DNA from: Hyphococcus sp.
GTDB lineage: Bacteria > Pseudomonadota > Alphaproteobacteria > Caulobacterales > Parvularculaceae
Assembly: GCA_021776335.1 (NCBI GenBank)
Contig: JAJFGB010000005.1
Coordinates: 124,001-188,000, forward strand
Reading direction: 5' to 3'
DNA length: 64,000 nt
Part shown: piece by piece, positions 2,486 to 40,527 of the stretch
Layout: the number at the start of each line of letters is the position of its first letter
Numbering within the stretch: position 1 is the first letter of the stretch
Notes under the pieces: generated by a model
Database searches by the model: none
The model's input: only the letters and a program-made list of their open reading frames with translations
What the model was told of the DNA's origin: nothing
Position numbers and translations under genes: made by a program

Positions 2486-3922
2486 CTAAGGTTTGATCTT
2501 CGCCTCATAGGCTTTGACGTCGCGCTTTAACTCCGGAAGCAACAGATAAAGCGCGATGATGTTCGGGATCGCCATTGCAAACAGCATTGAGTCAATGAAA
2601 TTGATGATCGCCGACAGTGACACGGCCGCACCGGTCGACAACAGAAAACACAAGGTCAGTTTAAAAATTACGTCAGTGCGTTTTGACGGCCCAAACAAAT
2701 AGGCGGCGGCTTGCGAGCCGTAAAATGCCCAGCTCACCAAGGTTGAAAAAGCAAACATGACCGATGCCAACAGCAGTACATAAGGGAACCAGCCAAAAGC
2801 GCTTTCAAAAGCGGCTGATGTAATCTCGATGCCGACAACATTTTGATTGAAAAGGAACGGCTCATAAACGCCGGTGACAATCACAACGAGGCCGGTGAGC
2901 GTGCAGACAACCACCGTATCAATAAAGGGCTCCAGCAGCGCAACATAGCCTTCGGTCAATGGCTCGTTTGTTTTGACCGCCGAATGAGCAATGGCGGCGG
3001 AGCCGACGCCAGCCTCGCTTGAATAGGTGGCGCGTCTGACGCCGTTGATAAGCGCGCCGATCAATCCGCCACCCGCTGCGTCGAGGCCAAAGGCGCTTTC
3101 AAAGATCGTTGCAATAGCAGCAGGGATTGCCGGGATATTCAGGGCCAGAATGATCAATGCTGAGCCGACATAGAGGACGCCCATAACAGGCACGATCAAT
3201 CGCGCCACGCCGCCGATGCGTTTGATGCCGCCAAGGATAATATAGGCGACTCCGATCGACATGATGATGCCGAAGGCAAGGGGCGCGGAAATGCCGGTGA
3301 CATTGGCGAATTGTGCGTGAGCCTGATTGACCTGAAAAACGCTGACCGATGCGCCCATGGCCATGATCGCGAAAAATATTGCCGCGCCCTTGCCGACAGT
3401 TTTTAGTCCGTGCCGGGAAAAAACCGCCTCGATATAAAACATCGGCCCGCCAAGGGTGCGCCCGTCCGGCTGGACTTTGCGATATTTCACCGCGAGGGCG
3501 CATTCGGCGAACTTTGCGGACATGCCGAAAAAGCCGGCTAAAATCATCCAGAAAATCGCGCCTGGTCCGCCAAGGGCAATAGCCACGGGCACTGAGGCGA
3601 TATTGCCAAGGCCGACGGTGCCTGAAAGGGCGGCGCTGAGCGCTTGAAAATGAGATATCTCGCCATCGACTGGATCGTCTTTTAAATGCTCGCGCGGGTT
3701 AAAAACCAGATGCCAGCCATGGCGGAAGCCACGCAGGTTGATAAAGCGCAGGGCAAAAGTGAGGATAATCCCGGCGCCGATCAGCCAGACAACAACCAGT
3801 GGCACAGAGACACCGGCGACATTGACCGAATAAAAAATGATTGAGGAAACAAAGTTGCTGACCGGCGTCAGTGTATTGTTAATGGCGTCGGCAAGGCTTT
3901 GGGACTGGTCAGCGTCGGCCAT
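2486..3922 (-). CDS. Alanine/glycine:cation symporter (AGCS family)
   Basis: Sodium- or proton-coupled small amino-acid importer of the inner membrane. The 478-residue chain has around ten hydrophobic segments. Family features include the signature stretch GTVGLGNIASVPVAIALGGP near residue 100 and the RRATYSSEAGVGSAAIAHSA region near residue 300. It is convergent with xerC, with only seven bases between stops, and is followed (upstream on the other side) by the cysteine operon. Alanine or glycine as substrate is a family-level inference; specificity cannot be read from sequence. Confidence 0.93.
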   Translation of the reverse strand: MADADQSQSLADAINNTLTPVSNFVSSIIFYSVNVAGVSVPLVVVWLIGAGIILTFALRFINLRGFRHGWHLVFNPREHLKDDPVDGEISHFQALSAALSGTVGLGNIASVPVAIALGGPGAIFWMILAGFFGMSAKFAECALAVKYRKVQPDGRTLGGPMFYIEAVFSRHGLKTVGKGAAIFFAIMAMGASVSVFQVNQAHAQFANVTGISAPLAFGIIMSIGVAYIILGGIKRIGGVARLIVPVMGVLYVGSALIILALNIPAIPAAIATIFESAFGLDAAGGGLIGALINGVRRATYSSEAGVGSAAIAHSAVKTNEPLTEGYVALLEPFIDTVVVCTLTGLVVIVTGVYEPFLFNQNVVGIEITSAAFESAFGWFPYVLLLASVMFAFSTLVSWAFYGSQAAAYLFGPSKRTDVIFKLTLCFLLSTGAAVSLSAIINFIDSMLFAMAIPNIIALYLLLPELKRDVKAYEAKIKP

Positions 3923-9245: not shown

Positions 9246-10445
9246 TCAGGAGGTAAGAGTTTCGAGGATTGCCGCTGACGGATAGCCGTCTGCTGGTAAT
9301 CCATTGTCTCGTTGCCAGGCGCGCAGCGCGCGTTTGGTGCCAGCGCCGATGATGCCGTCAACGGGCCCCGGATTATAGCCTCGATCAATCAGCGCCTGCT
9401 GCAGGGCTTTGCGCTCTGCAAAAGCGAGTGCGCGGTCGCCTCGAGGCCAGAGTGCGGTAACGGCGCCGCTGCGGCCAGCCGCTTCTTCGCTCAATAGGGA
9501 AACCGCAAGCGCGTAAGCCGTTGAGCGATTGTATTTCAAAATCGCGTCGAAATTTTCGAATGTTAAAAACGCCGGACCGGTGGCGCCCGCCGGCAAGATG
9601 AGACGGCCGCGCATATTCGGATCGAATCTGCCCAATAGGCTGGTCCCGGTTCCGGTTTTGACGCCGCCTGCCGCCCATTCAACAAGCGGCTTGTGAATAT
9701 TGCTATCGGCGAGTGCGTAATCAAACCCGTCTGGCAGCCGCACCTCTGCGCCCCAGGGTTCATTCTGGCGGTACCCTGAAGCGCTTAAATAGTTTGCCGT
9801 TGACGCGAACACATCGCCGAGATTAGTCCAGATATCACGACGTCCATCGCCATCATGGTCAACCGCATAGGTGAGATATGTTGTCGGAATAAACTGTGTG
9901 TGACCCATGGCGCCGGCCCATGAGCCTTTCAACTGTGAGCGTAACGCATAACCATTTTGAATAATTTTTAACGCGCCGATGAGTTGGCTGCGACCATAGC
10001 CGGTGCGCCGTCCCTCAAACGCCAGTGTCGCCAGCGCCTGTATCGCATCATAATTGCCGAGGATTGCGCCATATGAGGATTCAAGCCCCCAGATTGCAGT
10101 GATGATTTCTGCATCAACGCCGTAAGCCTGTTCGATGAGTGATAATAAGGCCCTATGTTCAGCCATTTTTGCGCGCCCATTGTCGATGCGCTGCGCCGAT
10201 ACGGCGCCATCTAAATAATCCCAAATCCTCCGTGAAAATTCAGGCTGATTGTCGTTCAGCTCGTATACGCGCTTATTGATGATGACGCCCTCAAACGCAT
10301 CGGCGATCACCTCGGCGCTGATGCCTGCGGCGGCCGCTTCTGCGCGAAACCCCTCGAGCCAGCTTTCAAAATCGGTTGATTGCGCGGAAGCCGCCCCCGC
10401 AAATGATGCGGCGCAAAAACTAATGACCGCCAGTAATCGTCTCAT
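9246..10445 (-). CDS. Lytic murein transglycosylase, MltB type with peptidoglycan-binding domain
   Basis: Periplasmic enzyme cleaving peptidoglycan with 1,6-anhydro products. A Sec signal peptide ends near residue 22 (GAASAQS). The SLT_2 domain contains IWGLESSYG, where E122 matches the catalytic glutamate, and GAMGHTQFIPTTY. The C-terminal 60 residues (DRGYNPGPVDGIIGAGTKRAL) form a PG_binding_1 domain. There is no lipobox, so it is likely soluble in the periplasm, unlike E. coli MltB. It is transcribed divergently from the M49-like gene. Confidence 0.93.
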   Translation of the reverse strand: MRRLLAVISFCAASFAGAASAQSTDFESWLEGFRAEAAAAGISAEVIADAFEGVIINKRVYELNDNQPEFSRRIWDYLDGAVSAQRIDNGRAKMAEHRALLSLIEQAYGVDAEIITAIWGLESSYGAILGNYDAIQALATLAFEGRRTGYGRSQLIGALKIIQNGYALRSQLKGSWAGAMGHTQFIPTTYLTYAVDHDGDGRRDIWTNLGDVFASTANYLSASGYRQNEPWGAEVRLPDGFDYALADSNIHKPLVEWAAGGVKTGTGTSLLGRFDPNMRGRLILPAGATGPAFLTFENFDAILKYNRSTAYALAVSLLSEEAAGRSGAVTALWPRGDRALAFAERKALQQALIDRGYNPGPVDGIIGAGTKRALRAWQRDNGLPADGYPSAAILETLTS

Positions 10446-10595
10446 CGAGGCCCCTCTGATGGCGCCGTACTCTATAACGCGCCCCGAAAATCAATATTCG
10501 AACCGTACCGCCGCCGCAAGGCGGGAATATGGCGGGCTTTATGCCCCGGCGGCAAGCATCTGCTGAAAATGCAAGTCCGGTGCTTGCGATAGGGT

Positions 10596-10640
10596 CGCAT
10601 CTGCTGGAGCGAAAACCGGTTCCCACTTTTGGTCGGGCGC
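10596..10640. repeat. Short dispersed-repeat core resembling part of the 28.9-kb element
   Basis: The core GAAAACCGGTTCCCACTTTT at 10611-10630 parallels, in reverse complement, AAAAGTGTGAATCGGTTTTC inside the element at 28887-29051, and both are flanked by a GCGCAT/GCAT-like block. It looks like a solo or degenerate member of the same dispersed family. It lies in the gap between two divergent genes, so it could affect their promoters. Family membership is inferred by eye. Confidence 0.45.
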
Positions 10641-10711
10641 TCTAGAGTGCGCCGCAAATAGGGGCTGCCCCTCGGGGCTTTTCGATCATTTGATAATTGA
10701 GGAAAATCTGC

Positions 10712-12400
10712 ATGAACAAGTTTCTGGCCATATCCCTGATTTCGCTCGCTGCGGCCTGCTCACAAGGCGAAAAAGATGCATCGGCGCAACCGGTTGAAGG
10801 CAGTAGCGCAGTTGCAGCGGCGGTTGAACAGTCTCCGTTGCAGGCGATGCGTGACCAGTTTGCCGTCGTGGAGATGGCGCCGGATGTTTCTTTCCTGAGC
10901 GATGAGGACCGCGCGGTCGTCAACAAACTCAATCAAGTCGGCGCATTGATGTCTGAAATCTATCTTCGCCAGCGCAGCGAGGAAAACCCAGCCTGGCGCG
11001 ACGCCATCGCCGATGACGCGTCAGCCGAAAAAGATCTTCTGCTCAATTTATTCGATTTGCATTTTGGCCCCTGGGATACGCTCAACGAAAACAAACCGTT
11101 TTACGGTGATGTCGCTATGCCTGACGGTGCGGCGTTCTACCCTGCGGATATGAGCAAGGAAGAATTCGACCAGTGGATCGCCGATCATCCCGAAGATGAG
11201 GCTGCGTTCAAGAGTGGCTACACGGTCATTCGTCGGGACGGGGACAGGCTCATCGCCATTCCCTATTCGACGCATTACCGCGAATGGCTGGAGCCAGCGG
11301 CGGCGCTTATGCGCGAAGCAGCGGCGATCACGACAAATGATAGCCTTAAAAACTTTTTGACGCTGCGCGCAGAAAGCTTTTTGACAGACGACTACTACGA
11401 GTCTGAAATGGCGTGGATGGACCTCAACGGCCCTATCGAAGCGGCCATCGGACCTTACGAGGTCTATACGGATAATCTCTTCGGTTACAAAACGGCTTAT
11501 GAAGCCTTTGTTACCATCATCAATCCGGAGGAGAGTGCGGCACTCGCGAAATACAAGGATTTTCTTCGTGATATGGAAGCAAATCTTCCGGTCGATGAAA
11601 AGTACAAAAATTTTAAGCGCGGGTTTGAATCGCCCATCGCCGTTACCTATCAGGTTCATGGCGGCGGCGACAATGTGCCGGGCGTTCAGACCATCGCCTT
11701 TAACCTGCCTAATGATGAGCGGGTGCGCGAAGCCAAGGGCGCCAAGAAAGTCATTTTGAACAATGTCCTCGGTGCGAAGTTCGACCGCATATTGGCGCCC
11801 ATGGCGGATATTGTGCTGGTTCCTGAACAGGCGGCGCTCTTGAAAAAGGCGCATATGTCCAACAAGACCCTGTTTCACGAACTCTCGCACAGCCTTGGAC
11901 CGGGGACGATTACCGTTGACGGCGAAGAGACGACGGTCAATGCGCAGCTTCAGGAACTCTACTCGCCCATCGAGGAAGGCAAGGCCGACATTATGGGCGG
12001 CTACAATGTGCTTTACATGATGGCGCGCGGCGAAATCCCTGACACCGAAAAGGAAAGCTATCTCGCGACGCATTTTGTCGGGCTGTTCCGATCCATGCGG
12101 TTCGGTGTTGCCGCTGCTCATGCACGCGGCGCAGCGTTTCAATATACCTACTTCAAAGACGCAGGCGCCTTTGAATGGGATGGCAATGAAAACAAATACC
12201 GTCTTGATTTTGCGGCGCTGGAAAATGCGATTTCAGATCTTACCCGTGACGTTGTGATCCTTCAGGCCAATGGCGACTATGACGCGGCAAAAGCATTTCT
12301 CGATCAATATACGGTTCTTGACGCGAACGCCAAAGCCGCGATTGCGGCGCTAACGGATTTGCCTGTGGATATTCAGCCAGTTTATGCGGATGAGCTTTGA
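10712..12400 (+). CDS. Dipeptidyl-peptidase III-like (M49-type) zinc metallopeptidase lipoprotein
   Basis: A 562-residue predicted lipoprotein: short hydrophobic signal and lipobox LAAAC with acylated C16. Zinc-site motifs are HELSH (H389, E390, H393) and, 28 residues on, EEGKAD (E421/E422), resembling the HEXXGH and EEXXAE pair of M49 dipeptidyl-peptidase III but with a one-residue-shorter HExxH. Bacterial DPP3-family homologues of this kind exist; the substrate is unknown. An upstream in-frame TTG is ignored because TGAGGAAAA serves as ribosome binding site for the ATG. Its stop overlaps the start of the following serine hydrolase (TGATG), implying coupled expression. An N-terminal low-complexity linker follows the lipobox. 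Confidence 0.82.
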   Translation: MNKFLAISLISLAAACSQGEKDASAQPVEGSSAVAAAVEQSPLQAMRDQFAVVEMAPDVSFLSDEDRAVVNKLNQVGALMSEIYLRQRSEENPAWRDAIADDASAEKDLLLNLFDLHFGPWDTLNENKPFYGDVAMPDGAAFYPADMSKEEFDQWIADHPEDEAAFKSGYTVIRRDGDRLIAIPYSTHYREWLEPAAALMREAAAITTNDSLKNFLTLRAESFLTDDYYESEMAWMDLNGPIEAAIGPYEVYTDNLFGYKTAYEAFVTIINPEESAALAKYKDFLRDMEANLPVDEKYKNFKRGFESPIAVTYQVHGGGDNVPGVQTIAFNLPNDERVREAKGAKKVILNNVLGAKFDRILAPMADIVLVPEQAALLKKAHMSNKTLFHELSHSLGPGTITVDGEETTVNAQLQELYSPIEEGKADIMGGYNVLYMMARGEIPDTEKESYLATHFVGLFRSMRFGVAAAHARGAAFQYTYFKDAGAFEWDGNENKYRLDFAALENAISDLTRDVVILQANGDYDAAKAFLDQYTVLDANAKAAIAALTDLPVDIQPVYADEL

Positions 12401-31521: not shown

Positions 31522-34317
31522 CTAGTTTGTAACGGTCATTTCGTTTGCGGCTGAGTCTGGGGTCTGTGGAGCCCAGCTGGCGATTGCCGCATCAATGTCC
31601 TGACGTTGAGCCGCAGTCAGAGCCACAGCGACGCCAGCCGCCAGCGGCCCCGCCTGTTGGTCGCCATTTTTTGCAGCGAGAGAATACCAATAATAGGCCT
31701 GGCCAGCGTCCTGAATGGCGGAAGGCGCGCTGCCGCTGCTCGGGTGATAGATTGCGCCAAGATTATATTGTGAATCGACGAGGCCAAATTCTGCTGCGCG
31801 CTCGAACCAGCCGATGGCTTCGCGCGTGTCGGCTGCGCCGCCATCGCCGCGCGCTGTCATCACGCCGATCCGGTGTGTCGCCAGAACATTGCCGCCATTA
31901 GCCGCGCGACGGAACCACAGGCGCGCTTGCCCAAGATCCTGATCGACACCTTGACCGGTCTTGAAAAGCTCGCCGAGCTGCAATTGCGCCGGCGGGTAAC
32001 CAAGCGCGGCCGCATCTTGTAGCTTTTCTATTGATGCAGAATTGTCAGCATCACTTGCGGCGGCGCTGAGAGAGGCCATGCTTTCTATATAGAGCGTCCG
32101 CGGATTAATGGCCGGCGCAGTCGGCAGGGCGGCGACGGTTTCGACCTCGTTGTCGATTGCCCCTGTTGTTGCCGGCAGGGATGTTGCTATCGCTGCCGGC
32201 GCGTCGGCGGCGTCTGGTTTGAACACCAAATCTTTAATCAGGAAAAACAGCGCCGCTGCGGCGAGAACAATTGCCACGCCAAGGGCTAGTGTAACCGGTC
32301 GGGCTGCCGCCGTTGCTTTCAGTGTCGCAAATGCGGCTTTGTCTCCGGTTTGTGGGTCAGTCAAATCGACTTCTATGGCATCCGGTTTGGCATCCGGCTT
32401 TTTGTCATCCCCGTCGACTTCTTCTTTTCTGGAAAATCGACCAGTAATGGAAGAAAAGGCGTCCGAAATCTTTGAAAACGGTCCTTTGTCGTCATTAGTT
32501 TCGTCTGTGACGTCGGCCACAGGGGCCGCTGCAACAGGCATCGCTGGTGTTTCTTGTGAACTCTCTCCAGCCGCGGCGCGGCGTTTTTGCCGCGCGCGCG
32601 CGGCAAGGATCGCCTTTTGTTTTGGCGACAATTTGCGACGCGCAGACTTCCCTGTTTCGGCGGAACGCTGTGCGGCCTCTTTGGCGCGTCGCCTCGCGGC
32701 TTTCATATAGTCTTCTTCTTCCGCAGCTTCGGCAGGTGCTTCCGTGGAGATCGTTGGCGGCTTGCCCGCCAGCATCGCCTTGGCGGCGGCCCGGGACGAT
32801 TGCGGTTCTGTTTGTGCTTCACCTGTTTGCGTATCTTCTGATGTCGTATCTGAGCTTGCCGTCAGTGCATCGAGGTCGGCAAAGATCGAATCGAGATCGT
32901 CGTCGTCATCCTCTTCGGTCGTGTCGTCTTTGTCTGCGCTCATATCCGCGGCGTCATCACCTTCTGGTTTTCCACCGCTGAACGCTTCTTGAACCTCCGA
33001 TAACAATGCGCGCGCCGCATTCGCCTCCGACGGTTCGGATGGTTTTCCGCCGTCCGATTCATCGTCAAGATCGAAGCTGAAATCGTCGCCTTTCTCGGCA
33101 TCCGTTTCAGTATCCGTGGCGTCGGCGGTCAGGGGCTCGTCGTCGAACGAAAACGGATCCGCGCTGGAAACATCGCCCATATTATCGTCGTCGGCGTCTT
33201 TTTCGGAGAGGTCAGGCGTATCGCTGATGTCTTCGACCATTTGGTCGATGTCATCACTAATATCAAATGCCAACGGTGTCGTTGGCTCAGCATTGTCGCC
33301 ATCGTCGTCTTCAGTTTTTGGTCGGCCGCCAATCGTTTCCAGCCTGCCGATCAGGTCGGAAAAAGAGTTCTGTAGCGTCGATATGCGCGCATCCGTTTCA
33401 GTGCGTGCAGTATTGATTGCCTCATCAATTGCGGCGCGATTGTCATCCTGATTATTTTCACGCGTCATCCGCTCGCTTAATTCGGAGACCGACTCGGCAA
33501 CTTTTTGCACACCGTCGGCGCTGCGTAACTCCGCGGCGTCAATTTGTTCAGCGAGTTTGGTAACGACGCCTTCAAGCGAGCGAATCTGGTCGCCGCCGCG
33601 TTTGATTTCATCGCCAAGAATGCGCAGACGGGCGCCGGTCTGCTCTATGAATTCGGGGTCCGCAGATCCGTTGGCGCTGTTTGTTAGTTTGGCCGCCTCG
33701 CTTGCGATGCGTTCGGCGCGCGCGATGCGCGCGGAAAGACCGTCGATAGCGTCTTTCAAAAAAGTAACGCCGGATGATGCGTCGCTGTCTCCGCCGGCGC
33801 GGTCAATGCGTGCAGCAAGTTCCTGAAGCTGTCGCTCATTGGCGTCAATACGCTCCAGCGATGTCTTGTGGGCATTGTTGAACTGAACGGCGACCTGCGT
33901 CACCGCTTTTTCGAGCGCTTTTAATGCGTCAACGCGCTGGCGATCGCCTCCTGCGCGTTCCAGCCTGCCAAGTCGGTCCGCAAGATCGTCATTGGATCCT
34001 TCGGCGGGTTTGACGCGCTCCAGTCTTTGTGTGCGCTCGACGACACCGCCAATATTGCGCGATAATTCGCTGACCGCTGCCGCACTGGCGGTTTCCATTT
34101 CGCCAAGGCGCTTATTCAAATGCTCAATCGCCGTGACCAGATCAGCCGCTTTTAGTCCTTCAATCTCGCCATCGGAGCTCTGCGGATCGCCGGCGGTGTA
34201 TATCATTTGATTGAGCCACTCGCCGACCGTCATGCCCTCACGCCGCGCGGCATCCTTCGCCGTCTCGCGGGCGTCACGTTCAATACCTTTAACGCTCCAT
34301 GGGGCGTTTGATTTCAT
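31522..34317 (-). CDS. PodJ-like polarity/scaffold protein with Sel1 repeats
   Basis: About 931 residues. The N-terminus APWSVKGIERDARETAKDAA and MTVGEWLNQMI matches the start of Caulobacter PodJ-type localization factors. A long coiled-coil (about 60-340), an acidic disordered middle (runs of Asp and Glu), a Lys/Arg-rich patch, one membrane helix (VTLALGVAIVLAAAALFFLI) and periplasmic Sel1-like repeats (QLGELFKTGQGV, ARLWFRRAANGG, AIGWFERAAEFG) follow. The start chosen is ATG with MKSNAPWS; the frame stays open 27 codons further upstream. A perfect CtrA box lies 157 bases upstream. Confidence 0.85.
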   Translation of the reverse strand: MKSNAPWSVKGIERDARETAKDAARREGMTVGEWLNQMIYTAGDPQSSDGEIEGLKAADLVTAIEHLNKRLGEMETASAAAVSELSRNIGGVVERTQRLERVKPAEGSNDDLADRLGRLERAGGDRQRVDALKALEKAVTQVAVQFNNAHKTSLERIDANERQLQELAARIDRAGGDSDASSGVTFLKDAIDGLSARIARAERIASEAAKLTNSANGSADPEFIEQTGARLRILGDEIKRGGDQIRSLEGVVTKLAEQIDAAELRSADGVQKVAESVSELSERMTRENNQDDNRAAIDEAINTARTETDARISTLQNSFSDLIGRLETIGGRPKTEDDDGDNAEPTTPLAFDISDDIDQMVEDISDTPDLSEKDADDDNMGDVSSADPFSFDDEPLTADATDTETDAEKGDDFSFDLDDESDGGKPSEPSEANAARALLSEVQEAFSGGKPEGDDAADMSADKDDTTEEDDDDDLDSIFADLDALTASSDTTSEDTQTGEAQTEPQSSRAAAKAMLAGKPPTISTEAPAEAAEEEDYMKAARRRAKEAAQRSAETGKSARRKLSPKQKAILAARARQKRRAAAGESSQETPAMPVAAAPVADVTDETNDDKGPFSKISDAFSSITGRFSRKEEVDGDDKKPDAKPDAIEVDLTDPQTGDKAAFATLKATAAARPVTLALGVAIVLAAAALFFLIKDLVFKPDAADAPAAIATSLPATTGAIDNEVETVAALPTAPAINPRTLYIESMASLSAAASDADNSASIEKLQDAAALGYPPAQLQLGELFKTGQGVDQDLGQARLWFRRAANGGNVLATHRIGVMTARGDGGAADTREAIGWFERAAEFGLVDSQYNLGAIYHPSSGSAPSAIQDAGQAYYWYSLAAKNGDQQAGPLAAGVAVALTAAQRQDIDAAIASWAPQTPDSAANEMTVTN

Positions 34318-34473
34318 CGCTCTCACCGTTTTCGCTGGGGCGAAATTCCCCGTTTTTCGACCGTTGCTCGGGCGGTTGTTATCGCCAAGGCGAAACATTT
34401 CACGGTTAAGGTGCTTCGCGATTTCCGCAAAGCCTAATCCGCGTTATAGCCGCGCCACCACAACTTCTGGTCG

Positions 34474-36418: not shown

Positions 36419-36847
36419 TTAATCCGGCGGCCGGATGTCGATGGCTGCCGGATCAAGATTTTTCAGCCTGCATTCCCAGATCGTGACCACGCGCCAGCCG
36501 AGCTTTCTCAATGCGGCGGCGTTTTTTTTGTCGCGGGCCTTGTTGCGTGCAACCTTTTCCAGCCAATAGGCGCGGTTTGTTTTCGGCACGCGCTTGCCGC
36601 GTTTGCAGTGGTGGCCGTGCCAAAAACAGCCATGGACGAAGATTATGGTGTGGTGTTTTGGAAAGACCAGATCCGGCTTTCCCGGTAAGGTTTTCACATT
36701 TAGTCTGTAGCGATAGCCGATCGCGAACAGCGCTTTGCGCAACGCGACCTCCGGCTTTGTATTTTCGGATTTTACGGCCCGCATAATGGCGGACCGTTTT
36801 TCGGGCGAGAAGACATCGCTGCGTTCGGGACTTATGAGCGCTATCAT
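36419..36847 (-). CDS. vsr: Very short patch repair endonuclease Vsr
   Basis: 142-residue mismatch endonuclease that nicks at T:G mismatches left by 5-methylcytosine deamination. Motifs: EKRSAIMRAVKSENTKPEV at the N-terminus, GKPDLVFPKH with the catalytic Asp, and VHGCFWHGHHC zinc/active-site segment. The start overlaps the dcm-like stop by four bases, the usual dcm-vsr coupling. Length is near that of E. coli Vsr. Confidence 0.94.
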   Translation of the reverse strand: MIALISPERSDVFSPEKRSAIMRAVKSENTKPEVALRKALFAIGYRYRLNVKTLPGKPDLVFPKHHTIIFVHGCFWHGHHCKRGKRVPKTNRAYWLEKVARNKARDKKNAAALRKLGWRVVTIWECRLKNLDPAAIDIRPPD

Positions 36848-37971
36848 GCCGCTTTGCGCGCGTGCGCCCTGAGCCCAGGCTCAAAAATATTCTCTGCGAG
36901 CCATTGCACTACTGGAACGCAAACACCGTCGCCACAGAGTTTTAACGCTGCGGTGGTGCTTTCCGGCAAGGAATAGTCTTCCGGCATTCCCATAAGGCGC
37001 GCTGCCTCTCTGGGATTTAACAGCCGCGAACGGACTTGTCCGTCTTCGATTGCGAAAATGATCTGCCGCGACGATCCTCCGGCCGGCGTGCGCAAACACC
37101 CTGCAAGGCCATCAAAACGCGCCTCCACGCGCTGGACTGTGCTGCCATCTTCAATCCGTGTGCGTCTGAATGCGGCGCCGACGCGCCGGGCGCGATGGCG
37201 CGTCAAGGCATTGATGCGATTACGTTGCTGCTGGCTCATCATGTCGAGCAGTTTTTTCGTTTGTTTAGGGCTATGCCAATCCGAGGCCGCCCAGTCGATA
37301 ATATCGGAAAGGCGGGTATTGCGACCGGTTATTTTCGGCGCCTGAAGCCAGCCCCAGTTTTGTCTGACTTTTGCCGGAAGGCGCTCAACCGCGTCACACA
37401 GAGATGTCAGCTCATTATTCGGCGCCGCCAGCGCGAAGGCTGGTTCCGCACCAGGAGAAAACCCCAGAATGAAAAGCCGTGGCCGTGATTGCGGCGTAAA
37501 GATTTTAGCATCGATTACCATTGCTGAAACACGGTAGCCGGCGCCCGCTATCAATTCGACAATCGTTGCAAAGTCACGCCCGCTATTTGAGGTGAGAAGC
37601 CCAGCGACATTTTCCAAAGCAATGATGCGGGGCATCCGGCCCGCCGCGGCGAGGTCTTCGGTTATTCGCCAAAACTCAAAGAAGGCGCCGCTTCGTTTAG
37701 CCTTAATGCCGCCGCGAGCGCCGGCGAGCGACAAGTCCTGGCAGGGAAAGGAACCCCACATCAGGTCGGGTGCAGCCTTGGGCAATTGCGCAAGCGTGAT
37801 GGCGGCGATATCGCTTTCGATTAAGTCCTCGCCGCCAAAATTGGCGCGATAGGCGGTGCATTTTTGCGAATCAATGTCGTTGGCGAGCGCGCATTGCCAT
37901 GAATTACCGAGCCCCAGGCGCGTCATTCCGCCGCCGGCAAAAAATTCCAGAAAAGAATATTCAGCGCCCAT
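36844..37971 (-). CDS. DNA (cytosine-5) methyltransferase
   Basis: 375-residue C5-cytosine methyltransferase. Motif I LEFFAGGGMTRLGLG, catalytic PC with C77 in GSFPCQDLSLAG, ENV in IALENVAGLL, QSRPRLF, and the C-terminal LNPREAARLMGMPEDY are all visible. The variable region between about 185 and 290 sets the target, which I cannot read. No restriction endonuclease gene is adjacent; only vsr follows, so this may be an orphan or solitary methylase. Confidence 0.93.
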   Translation of the reverse strand: MGAEYSFLEFFAGGGMTRLGLGNSWQCALANDIDSQKCTAYRANFGGEDLIESDIAAITLAQLPKAAPDLMWGSFPCQDLSLAGARGGIKAKRSGAFFEFWRITEDLAAAGRMPRIIALENVAGLLTSNSGRDFATIVELIAGAGYRVSAMVIDAKIFTPQSRPRLFILGFSPGAEPAFALAAPNNELTSLCDAVERLPAKVRQNWGWLQAPKITGRNTRLSDIIDWAASDWHSPKQTKKLLDMMSQQQRNRINALTRHRARRVGAAFRRTRIEDGSTVQRVEARFDGLAGCLRTPAGGSSRQIIFAIEDGQVRSRLLNPREAARLMGMPEDYSLPESTTAALKLCGDGVCVPVVQWLAENIFEPGLRAHARKAA

Positions 37972-38181
37972 CGATGTTACTCAGTCCAATCTCGCCGCAT
38001 TCCGGCCGCATTTATCCGCATACGCATTGTCGTCGCCGTATTTGCGACACATTCGCCGCGTTTCCGCCATATTTCAAGCACTTATCTCCCGTGAGTGTGA
38101 TGATGCTTTCATTGACGAATAGTAATTCCTGACGCACAACAAGGGTGGGTGTTAGGGGGCGTCGCGAGCAAGGAGAAGCGA

Positions 38182-39369
38182 ATGCCCTTGATGGAAATGG
38201 GACGCGCGGCCGCAGCCGCATCAGCGACGCTGGCTTTTGCAATATTAGCAATGCCGGCATCAGCAGCAACAACACAGTCAAATTCAGTAACGGCGCCGCC
38301 CGGCGCCGAACGAGTGCAGTCTTTCCAGGTCGCCATGTTGCAAGATGATCGACGCGGCAGGCGCGGAGACCGATCTGACCGCCGCGGCAATGGCGAACGC
38401 CGCACTGAGCGTGCGGACCGCCGGGACAGCGGCCAGCAACGCGGCGAACGCAGCAATCAAAGACGCGAAAACCGCGACAATGGTGAGCGCTCGGACCGAC
38501 GTCGCGATAATGGCCAGCAGGGTAATCGCCGCTCGGAAAGGCGGCGCGACGCCAATGGTGGCGGCGGACAAGGCCAACGGCGTGCAAATGGCGGCAATGG
38601 CGGGCGTCGCGACGCCAATGGTGGCGGCGGACAAGGCCAACGGCGTGCAAATGGCGGCAATGGCGGACGTCGTGACGCCAATGGCGGTGGTCGAGATGGA
38701 CGCCGCGCGGATCGTGGTTCCGACAGACGCCGTGACGCCAATGGCGGCGGTCGAGATGGACGCCGCGCGGATCGTGGTTCCGACAGACGCCGTGACGCTA
38801 ACGGCGGCGGTCGAGACGGACGCCGCGCGGATCGTGGTTCCGACAGACGCCGTGACGCCAATCGTGGTGGTCGAGACGGCCGCCGTGCGGATCGCCGTCA
38901 TGATCGACGTTCTGATGGACGCCGCGCGGATCGTCGCCATGATCGACGTTCTGATGGGCGGCGGCACGATCGCCGTGCTGACCGACGTCACCGTGATCGT
39001 CGCGCTGATCACCGTCGGCACGATCGCCGTGCTGACCGACGTCACCGTCGTTCAGGATCCTATCGCCATCCGTCCCGATATAATGGGCGCCATTTCCGGC
39101 ATGGCCATGGGCCGCGCAACGGTCATGGCTATTATTGCTCGTTCCACAGTCTTTTCCATTACCAAAACGGGTATAATCCGCTTGGCTGGCTCTATGCGGA
39201 TTTTGGATGGGACTATTATTCATCCGGTTATATCGGCGATTGCGATGTGGTTTCGCAGAATTTTCATCGGCGCGGCCGCCGATATCGGGAAATCGCGCTG
39301 CTTTGCTACGACAGCTATGGCTATGGCTATATTAAGTCGGGCAGTCGCCGCGTTTACCGCGATTATTAA
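38182..39369 (+). CDS. Secreted Arg/Gly/Asn/Asp-rich tandem-repeat protein
   Basis: 395 residues. Signal peptide (about 28 residues, LAMPASA cleavage), then a long low-complexity basic region: two 21-residue units of RDANGGGGQGQRRANGGNGG type, about four 20-residue units RDANGGGRDGRRADRGSD, then RRADRRHDRRSDG-like units. The last 95 residues are different: Tyr/Gly-rich with two Cys (GHGYYCSFHS, YIGDCDVVSQ, SYGYGYIKSGSRR) and may fold. AAGGAG precedes the ATG at correct spacing; the GTG further upstream is rejected. No known domain. A strong terminator follows. Confidence 0.8.
   Translation: MPLMEMGRAAAAASATLAFAILAMPASAATTQSNSVTAPPGAERVQSFQVAMLQDDRRGRRGDRSDRRGNGERRTERADRRDSGQQRGERSNQRRENRDNGERSDRRRDNGQQGNRRSERRRDANGGGGQGQRRANGGNGGRRDANGGGGQGQRRANGGNGGRRDANGGGRDGRRADRGSDRRRDANGGGRDGRRADRGSDRRRDANGGGRDGRRADRGSDRRRDANRGGRDGRRADRRHDRRSDGRRADRRHDRRSDGRRHDRRADRRHRDRRADHRRHDRRADRRHRRSGSYRHPSRYNGRHFRHGHGPRNGHGYYCSFHSLFHYQNGYNPLGWLYADFGWDYYSSGYIGDCDVVSQNFHRRGRRYREIALLCYDSYGYGYIKSGSRRVYRDY
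38545..39050 (+). repeat. Coding tandem repeats (63-, 60- and 54-bp units)
   Basis: Two near-identical 63-bp units (38545-38670), three to four near-identical 60-bp units (38671-38910), and later units with 54-bp periodicity (copies of GCACGATCGCCGTGCTGACC near 38964 and 39018). The DNA is nearly identical between units, so copy number may vary by slippage or recombination, and long open frames arise by chance in the other frames. Confidence 0.85.
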
Positions 39370-39392
39370 TCTTTCGCCACTCAATGAGAATG

Positions 39393-39423
39393 CGGGCGCC
39401 GGTTACTCGGCGCCCGTTTTCTT
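39393..39423 (+). terminator. Intrinsic terminator after the repeat protein
   Basis: Arms CGGGCGCCG and CGGCGCCCG (9 bp) with a six-base loop followed by TTTTCTT, 24 bases after the stop. Confidence 0.85.
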
Positions 39424-39516: not shown

Positions 39517-40527
39517 ATGGGCTTAAAAAAACGCGCAATGGCGCGCCTGTTTCTGGCTTGGGTGCTTTCTGCCGCCGGGATGGCGGCGGTTGCGTTATCC
39601 GCAACGCCCGAGGCTTCCGGGCTCCTGGACGTTCAGATTGGCGAACGCGGCAATCAGACCCGTATCGCGCTTCTTTGCGATACCGCCTGTAACATTGAAA
39701 AGCGCAGCAACACGGAATTCATGCTGCACGGCGTAGGCGCGGATATCTCCCTTAATCTCAGCGCGCGCAGCAAGTTCGTTTCTGCTTTCACGGCAGCATC
39801 GCAGGGCAGCGGCAGCTTGATGCGGGTCAATGTTAATAGCGCTGTTGAATATGCGAACACCAAATCCTGCACGGTCGGTGGTCGCGCGGCGGCATGCATC
39901 GATCTTTTCTTCGCATCAAGCGAGCCGCCTGAGCCAGCCGAGGGGCAAACCGCGACGTCGCCGGCGCCCGCCGCTTATAGAGATCAGCCGATTCAATCCT
40001 CAAAACCGTCATTACGGGAAGGCGCCTCGGAAAGGCTGAATAATTTCTCGCAAGTAAGGCCGCCGGAACGGCTCACGGCGCCGCCGATCGCGACGCTGGC
40101 CAAACTGCAGCCAGCCGAGGAAATTGTTGAGGTCGGCAAGCCTGCGATCCGCAACCACGATCCGATTCGGCCCGCCGCCAGCCTGAACTATAAGGCGCGG
40201 GTGCACTCCCTGCTTGGTAAAGATTTGACACCTGCCTATTGCAACAACGCGCAAGCGACCCTGCAGGCCGATCCCTGGGCGCTTGGCGCTATGGTTGATG
40301 TAGGGCTTTGCACCGCAGCGCGTGGCGACGTTGCGGAGGCGGAAGAAATACTCTCGCGTCTTCTTGAATACACGCCGGATAATTATGAAGCCCATGTGGG
40401 GCGTGCGCTCATCGCCGCGGATGCCGGTGAAAAAAGCGTTGCGCGCAAATATTTTCAGGATGCGCTGAACACGCCGCCGCCAATCGAGGAATCAAATCGT
40501 ATCGTTCAGGCGATGAACGCGCTTTAA
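39517..40527 (+). CDS. TPR-containing secreted/periplasmic protein
   Basis: 336 residues starting at ATG (an upstream TTG is ignored). Signal sequence or membrane anchor (LFLAWVLSAAGMAAVALSA) leads to a beta-rich N-domain with paired cysteines (LLCDTACN, KSCTVGGRAAACID), a Pro/Ala-rich linker and a C-terminal TPR-like segment (AEEILSRLLEYTPDNYEAHVG). The N-domain resembles AMIN-type beta domains but this is not certain. Likely envelope protein; its function is unknown. It follows the repeat gene with the terminator between. Confidence 0.8.
   Translation: MGLKKRAMARLFLAWVLSAAGMAAVALSATPEASGLLDVQIGERGNQTRIALLCDTACNIEKRSNTEFMLHGVGADISLNLSARSKFVSAFTAASQGSGSLMRVNVNSAVEYANTKSCTVGGRAAACIDLFFASSEPPEPAEGQTATSPAPAAYRDQPIQSSKPSLREGASERLNNFSQVRPPERLTAPPIATLAKLQPAEEIVEVGKPAIRNHDPIRPAASLNYKARVHSLLGKDLTPAYCNNAQATLQADPWALGAMVDVGLCTAARGDVAEAEEILSRLLEYTPDNYEAHVGRALIAADAGEKSVARKYFQDALNTPPPIEESNRIVQAMNAL

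Follow-up and report, generated by a model that had tools for sequence, protein, structure and literature searches.

An exported arginine-rich repeat protein of the Parvularculaceae: sequence turnover at near-constant charge density and predicted ChvI-type operators

The locus described here lies in a 64,000-nucleotide stretch of DNA from Hyphococcus sp., called the window throughout, and is centred on a gene for a secreted, arginine-rich repeat protein (Table 1). The order of the locus is vsr and dcm, the latter a divergently oriented gene for a cytosine-C5 DNA methylase, then the Arg repeat gene, a gene for an AMIN-like tetratricopeptide repeat (TPR) protein and, further on, glyQ. The repeat gene is single-copy in its own genome when the C-terminal domain is used as the query, and this domain is matched in 26 of the 28 genomes of the genus (Marinicaulis, Parvularculaceae), the two genomes without a match being fragmented or incomplete. 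The vsr and methylase genes overlap by 4 bp, and their place beside the Arg gene is kept across most of the genus; synteny was judged where a contig extends far enough, and vsr is present nearly always. Outgroup genera retain all or part of the order of dcm, Arg protein and TPR gene. The Arg gene is missing from several genomes of genus g6, where dcm directly abuts the TPR gene, indicating that the Arg gene was gained or lost at the dcm/TPR junction. In the closest relative of the window (L037 in genome G017) an additional stretch of about 1.9 kb (10300-12234) separates the Arg gene from the AMIN-TPR gene. In the same neighbourhood in most relatives, and at 31522-34398 on the reverse strand of the window, lies a gene whose PodJ-like product combines Sel1-type repeats with a strongly acidic centre.

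Table 1. Features of the Arg repeat locus and of the chvI locus; positions are those of the window unless another source is named.
Feature	Position	Strand	Description	Basis
vsr, behind dcm	36419-36847		Pfam PF03852	conserved synteny
Cytosine-C5 DNA methylase (dcm), divergent neighbour	36844-37971	-	Pfam PF00145	conserved synteny
Distal GCC-N8-GCC direct repeat	37994-38007	+	GCCGCATTCCGGCC; predicted ChvI-type operator	orthologue enrichment
Proximal GCC-N8-GCC direct repeat	38055-38068	+	GCCGCGTTTCCGCC	alignment of 22 upstream regions
Promoter-like elements	38112-38140	+	TTGACG (38112-38117), 17 bp, CACAAC (38135-38140)	
Predicted leader hairpin	38154-38189	+	Shine-Dalgarno sequence in loop; AUG and codons 2-3 in stem	
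CDS, secreted Arg-rich repeat protein	38182-39369	+	395 aa	
Sec signal peptide	38182-38265	+	28 aa; cleavage likely after ASA	read by eye
Basic low-complexity region	38320-39111	+	264 aa	Tandem Repeats Finder arrays at 38540-39048
63-bp array	38540-38684		2.3 copies, 96% matches	Tandem Repeats Finder
60-bp array	38666-38894		3.8 copies, 92% matches	Tandem Repeats Finder
39-bp array	38881-38957		2 copies, 92% matches	Tandem Repeats Finder
54-bp array	38932-39048		2.2 copies	Tandem Repeats Finder
Conserved C-terminal domain	39064-39366	+	101 aa	alignment; AF2; class-wide distant relatives
Intrinsic terminator	39392-39417	+	11-pair stem, then TTTCTT	
AMIN-like TPR gene	39517-40527	+	AMIN-like fold (residues 36-132), Pro-rich linker, TPR	AF2, fold search, synteny
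chvI with half-site array (L172)	own genome, C11:213000-218500, start near 3567	-		

The architecture of the gene can be read directly from the DNA. Its start codon is set by the ribosome-binding site AAGGAG (38170-38175) and by ATGCCCTTGATG, which is kept in nearly all orthologues. The signal peptide (MPLMEMGRAAAAASATLAFAILAMPASA, identified by eye) has n, h and c regions that are alike in the orthologues, in agreement with the export proposed in a preliminary description of this DNA. A lipobox cysteine is absent in and just after the signal peptide, and no secretion-system or anchor signal was seen in the protein. A short charge-poor stretch separates the signal peptide from the basic region, which is 34% Arg and 16% Asp plus Glu, contains no Lys and has a net charge of +47. 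The basic Arg/Asp/Gly tandem repeats with 63- and 60-bp units, already recognized in that description, were confirmed by Tandem Repeats Finder, which also reports a 27-bp array of three copies in the gene. Because every repeat period is divisible by 3, a change in copy number alters the length of the protein while the reading frame stays. In three other genomes (L007 in G011, L022 in G015 and L019 in G027) a contig end or an N gap falls inside the repeat gene, a hint that assemblies from short reads are often interrupted at this point.

The gene is framed by signals of its own. TTGAC and CGCANATT-like blocks are conserved upstream of the orthologues; CACAAC is too weak for a generic sigma-70 scan to call the TTGACG/CACAAC pair. 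A stem followed by a T-run also stands after the stop codon in most orthologues. With its own promoter and terminator the Arg repeat gene is probably a separate transcript, and a single operon transcript with the AMIN-TPR gene was rejected because the terminator lies between the two. The conserved leader reads GGGCGCTARGGGGGC...TCGCT...AAGGAGAAGCGAATGCCCTTG, and its hairpin is predicted in most orthologues and in the outgroups. Codons ATGCCCTTG at the hairpin are almost invariant, and the leader fold may explain the near-invariance of ATGCCCTTGATG. Standard pairs fill 93.6% of the pair cells; covariation is weak, with one pair changed on both sides, and the folding z score is -1.85 in the window and -0.31 and -2.52 in two relatives. 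Thermodynamics and covariation are thus too weak for the hairpin to be claimed as a regulatory RNA, and a search of Rfam returned nothing over threshold.

The C-terminal domain, which the preliminary description had set apart from the repeats, is conserved, and its dN/dS of about 0.05-0.10 across six sister pairs shows purifying selection. It contains two invariant cysteines and a beta-meander core (39241-39366), and its AF2 model has a mean pLDDT of 61, with about 80 in the core. The best PDB match, a PC4-like fold, is not significant (Foldseek E 0.4; VIA Z 4.9, rmsd 3.9, 51 aligned residues), and DNA binding is therefore not claimed for the domain. Searches against Pfam, NCBIfam and PDB sequences gave nothing significant, neither Pfam nor NCBIfam has a name for the domain, and phages and plasmids yielded no match. 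The proposed search with this domain alone was productive, as it found the domain across the genus and in other alphaproteobacterial families. A profile that includes the outgroups recovers it in at least 12 further sampled genomes from eight genera in six other families of the class, with E values down to 5e-12 before inclusion in the profile and 1e-24 after, and a search with a broader profile repeated the result. The shared motif, C-x2-V ... [MLI]C[YHW]D ... GS at the extreme C-terminus, is also present in the window protein; the endings vary around a C...V...CYD/CYN...GS type. By these sequence matches the domain represents a wider, uncatalogued alphaproteobacterial family.

Members of the wider family (L133-L151) resemble the window protein in having a signal peptide, a low-complexity arm and the domain at the C-terminus, and those reading frames that could be read are secreted-looking, with arms that are mostly Arg/Lys/His-rich. 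They differ from it in their His/Gly/Tyr/Lys-rich arms or, by eye in some members, a glycine-zipper-like segment, and they have no catalogued name. One member carries a separate RRADRRAER array. One alphaproteobacterial family has two adjacent C-domain genes, one with a long Arg/His-rich arm and the other with a glycine-zipper-like segment (the adjacent pairs are L133/L145 in G638, L142/L149 in G339, L144/L148 in G466 and L137/L150 in G562). The 17-kDa surface antigens and related glycine-zipper envelope proteins of Alphaproteobacteria are likewise small and exported with a C-terminal domain; however, there is no Pfam or NCBIfam match to them, and the window protein lacks a glycine zipper. The Pfam models for the 17-kDa surface antigen, RcnB and BA14K found no match in the repeat protein.

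The downstream neighbour begins with a membrane segment or signal peptide, followed by an all-beta domain that is modelled by AF2 at a pLDDT of about 92. This domain matches the B2 domain of PilQ (4aqz, Foldseek E 4.7e-4) and AmiC (4bin, Z 12.5, rmsd 3.3, 104 aligned residues). None of 23 orthologues of the neighbour was matched by a Pfam AMIN model, even at E values up to 1, and the domain is called AMIN-like for this reason. AMIN domains of PilQ bind peptidoglycan (PMC5285504). The AMIN-TPR protein is present in 54 of 62 genomes of the family, many of which have no Arg gene, and is therefore a neighbour and perhaps a partner, though not an obligate one; given the terminator between the genes, the partnership is suggested by synteny only. 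The AMIN-TPR gene occurs family-wide in the Parvularculaceae and, in several genomes devoid of the Arg gene, adjoins dcm (L112-L131). Genome G061 has two adjacent AMIN-TPR matches, and in G017 a 635-aa frame elsewhere gives a second match, which is partial.

Direct repeats of the form GCC-N8-GCC occur upstream of all 22 complete orthologues (45 sites, against 0.93 expected from base shuffles), and GCC spacings other than N8 are not enriched there. The proximal repeat sits within a conserved block, CGACACATTCGCCGCGTTTCCGCCATATTTCAAG, and is unique in its own genome at up to 3 mismatches; the bare pattern GCCNNNTTNNNGCC is no rarity across the whole window, where 7 occurrences compare with 5.05 expected. 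A site of the TT-core type is absent from the locus in those g6 genomes that keep dcm and AMIN-TPR without the Arg gene and is seen in two g6 genomes that have it, and the sites thus go with the Arg gene. The upstream repeats match the published consensus for ChvI of S. meliloti, N-GCC-N8-GCC, which the Caulobacter ChvGI paper (PMC9731502) quotes, so that the N8 rule is that of another order; the motif proposed for ChvI of Caulobacter itself differs (TTGC-N3-GCAA; PMC9731502).

A candidate regulator is encoded in the same genome. The chvG gene specifies a 573-aa kinase (PF13755, E 4.5e-20), and beside it lie a chvI-type gene for a 231-aa OmpR-type regulator and an adjoining EIIA-Man-like gene; PF13756, the sensing domain of ChvG, was not detected. 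Upstream of chvI, four GCC half-sites and one GTC half-site follow one another at exact 11-bp steps, and four GCC half-sites at such steps arose in 1 of 20000 shuffles. This array is a candidate autoregulatory ChvI operator, and ChvI control of the Arg repeat gene is a prediction drawn from the shared site pattern. As ChvGI is tied to envelope homeostasis (PMC9731502), ChvI-type operators in the promoter point to the cell envelope. Neither the leader motif GGGCGCTARGGGGGCYTCGC, at up to 3 mismatches and with the window's own copy too divergent to be counted, nor the whole upstream region as a query has a second copy elsewhere in the genome, and no regulon was found by that route.

The repeat arm differs from species to species. 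Tandem Repeats Finder, run on each orthologue, gives units of RRDANGGGRDGRRADRGSDR in the window and units including RAQRQERRRSDSGGQRQQRQQRQAQRSDGER, SSGDHRSNRSGDHRR and RRYDHHRDHRRYDHRRDH in other species, and the arms of sister species share 60-83% identity in their repeats, with 33-75 gap columns and many indels. The recent expansion read from the near-identical DNA units can accordingly be described as lineage-specific, and the variable length foreseen in the preliminary description is borne out between species, with basic regions of 139 to 334 aa. In these regions basic residues make up 26-44% and acidic residues 5-25%, and the two fractions change together (r 0.95). Net charge per residue averages +0.189 over 22 orthologues (SD 0.0165, range 0.159-0.219), a constancy that is robust to five definitions of the basic region. 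The ordinary least-squares slope of acidic on basic fraction is 0.89 +/- 0.07 with a negative intercept, indicating that the difference between the fractions is held rather than their ratio. Outgroup copies at the same locus have net charges per residue of +0.13 to +0.20; a genus g7 homologue outside the locus (L127 1209-2132, G068) has -0.04 and an arm rich in Arg, Asp and Tyr.

An arm that is rewritten in each species while its net charge density stays nearly constant appears to be under selection for charge rather than for sequence. Conserved bulk features in disordered regions were read as stabilizing selection by Zarin and colleagues (PMC6634968), and by analogy the charge pattern of the arm is a signature of the type that they read in this way. 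Disordered regions such as that of Ste50 (PMC6634968) likewise keep their net charge while the sequence diverges; those regions, however, are eukaryotic and mostly intracellular, whereas the arm belongs to a bacterial exported protein and turns over by tandem repeats. The earlier idea of a polycationic exported protein, now backed by comparison between species, is plausible.

The reading to which we give most weight, at somewhat less than an even chance, is that the product is a ChvI-controlled exported envelope polycation that binds anionic envelope polymers. The Arg-rich repeat protein would be exported by Sec, and its C-terminal, disulfide-type domain would fold and probably anchor or dock the protein in the envelope. 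The arm, whose composition suggests disorder, would be kept by selection close to a net charge of +0.19 per residue and could act as a flexible electrostatic strap on peptidoglycan, lipopolysaccharide (LPS) or capsule, plausibly in the vicinity of the AMIN-like TPR protein from the adjacent gene. The protein would be made, or its level raised, under ChvI control. Since length and charge would be all that counts in the arm, repeat slippage could rewrite it without restraint.

A polycation acting further out, in the extracellular matrix or at the surface, might instead bind extracellular DNA, sulfated marine polysaccharides or other surfaces. The signal peptide, the use of Arg rather than Lys and the strong net charge would suit such a role, and there is a partial precedent in the Neisserial heparin-binding antigen (NHBA), an exported protein whose Arg-rich stretch binds heparin (PMC5079597). 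The window protein resembles NHBA in its export and its Arg-rich stretch (here extending over 264 aa), but NHBA, a lipoprotein, has a single short Arg-rich motif, and the window protein has a long repeat array and no lipobox. For the C-terminal domain, which in NHBA is a beta-barrel, the structure searches gave no significant match. The missing lipobox, secretion-system and anchor signals speak against a matrix or surface location, and both the AMIN-like neighbour and the ChvI-type operators favour a periplasmic or envelope location; a place outside the cell is therefore rather unlikely, if worth keeping in mind.

Less probable still is that function resides in the C-terminal domain alone, the repeats being a slippery, neutral linker with a charge that would simply mirror the limited codon repertoire of GC-rich repeats (CGN, GAY, GGN, AAY). 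Turnover of units is indeed seen between sister species, together with many gaps, and in the wider family the linker may instead be Gly/His/Tyr-rich. Yet codon-limited repeats by themselves do not predict constant charge density, and the charge statistics disfavour a passive spacer. When acidic fractions were permuted among species, the SD of net charge per residue averaged 0.071 and never fell below 0.039 in 20000 trials (p <= 5e-5), and sampling would give about 0.046; the observed value is 0.017. Basic and acidic fractions also covary along the tree, with r = 0.87 over 21 independent contrasts on one midpoint-rooted tree built from the Dcm, TPR, acyl-CoA dehydrogenase and C-domain proteins.

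A periplasmic metal or stress buffer, analogous to RcnB-type or His-rich proteins, would fit the His content, which reaches 15% in the arms of some orthologues and 21-30% in those of two wider-family members; with no match to RcnB or another Pfam family, and with His-poor arms in the window protein and several orthologues, it is very improbable. An accessory role for the dcm/vsr DNA-modification pair, which lies beside the gene in divergent orientation at nearly every locus long enough to include it, was rejected and has next to no likelihood, since the product is exported, relatives keep dcm beside AMIN-TPR with no Arg gene, and the operators accompany the Arg gene and are absent where dcm stands without it.

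The envelope-polycation reading can be drawn more fully, and more doubtfully, as an envelope-stress-controlled polyelectrolyte in which slippage would rewrite the arm, acidic and basic residues would compensate for one another, and the result would be a tunable strap on a C-terminal domain of an uncatalogued family. Most known cases of bulk charge being conserved while the sequence turns over are disordered regions of eukaryotes, and here the pattern is met in a core, single-copy, exported bacterial protein in which tandem repeats are the engine of turnover. The case is open to test by swapping arms between species and by changes of charge alone. It also brings to notice a C-terminal domain missed by annotation libraries, links a charge-conserved protein, by prediction, to the ChvGI envelope-stress system, and supplies an array upstream of chvI that could serve to predict the ChvI regulon of the Parvularculaceae.
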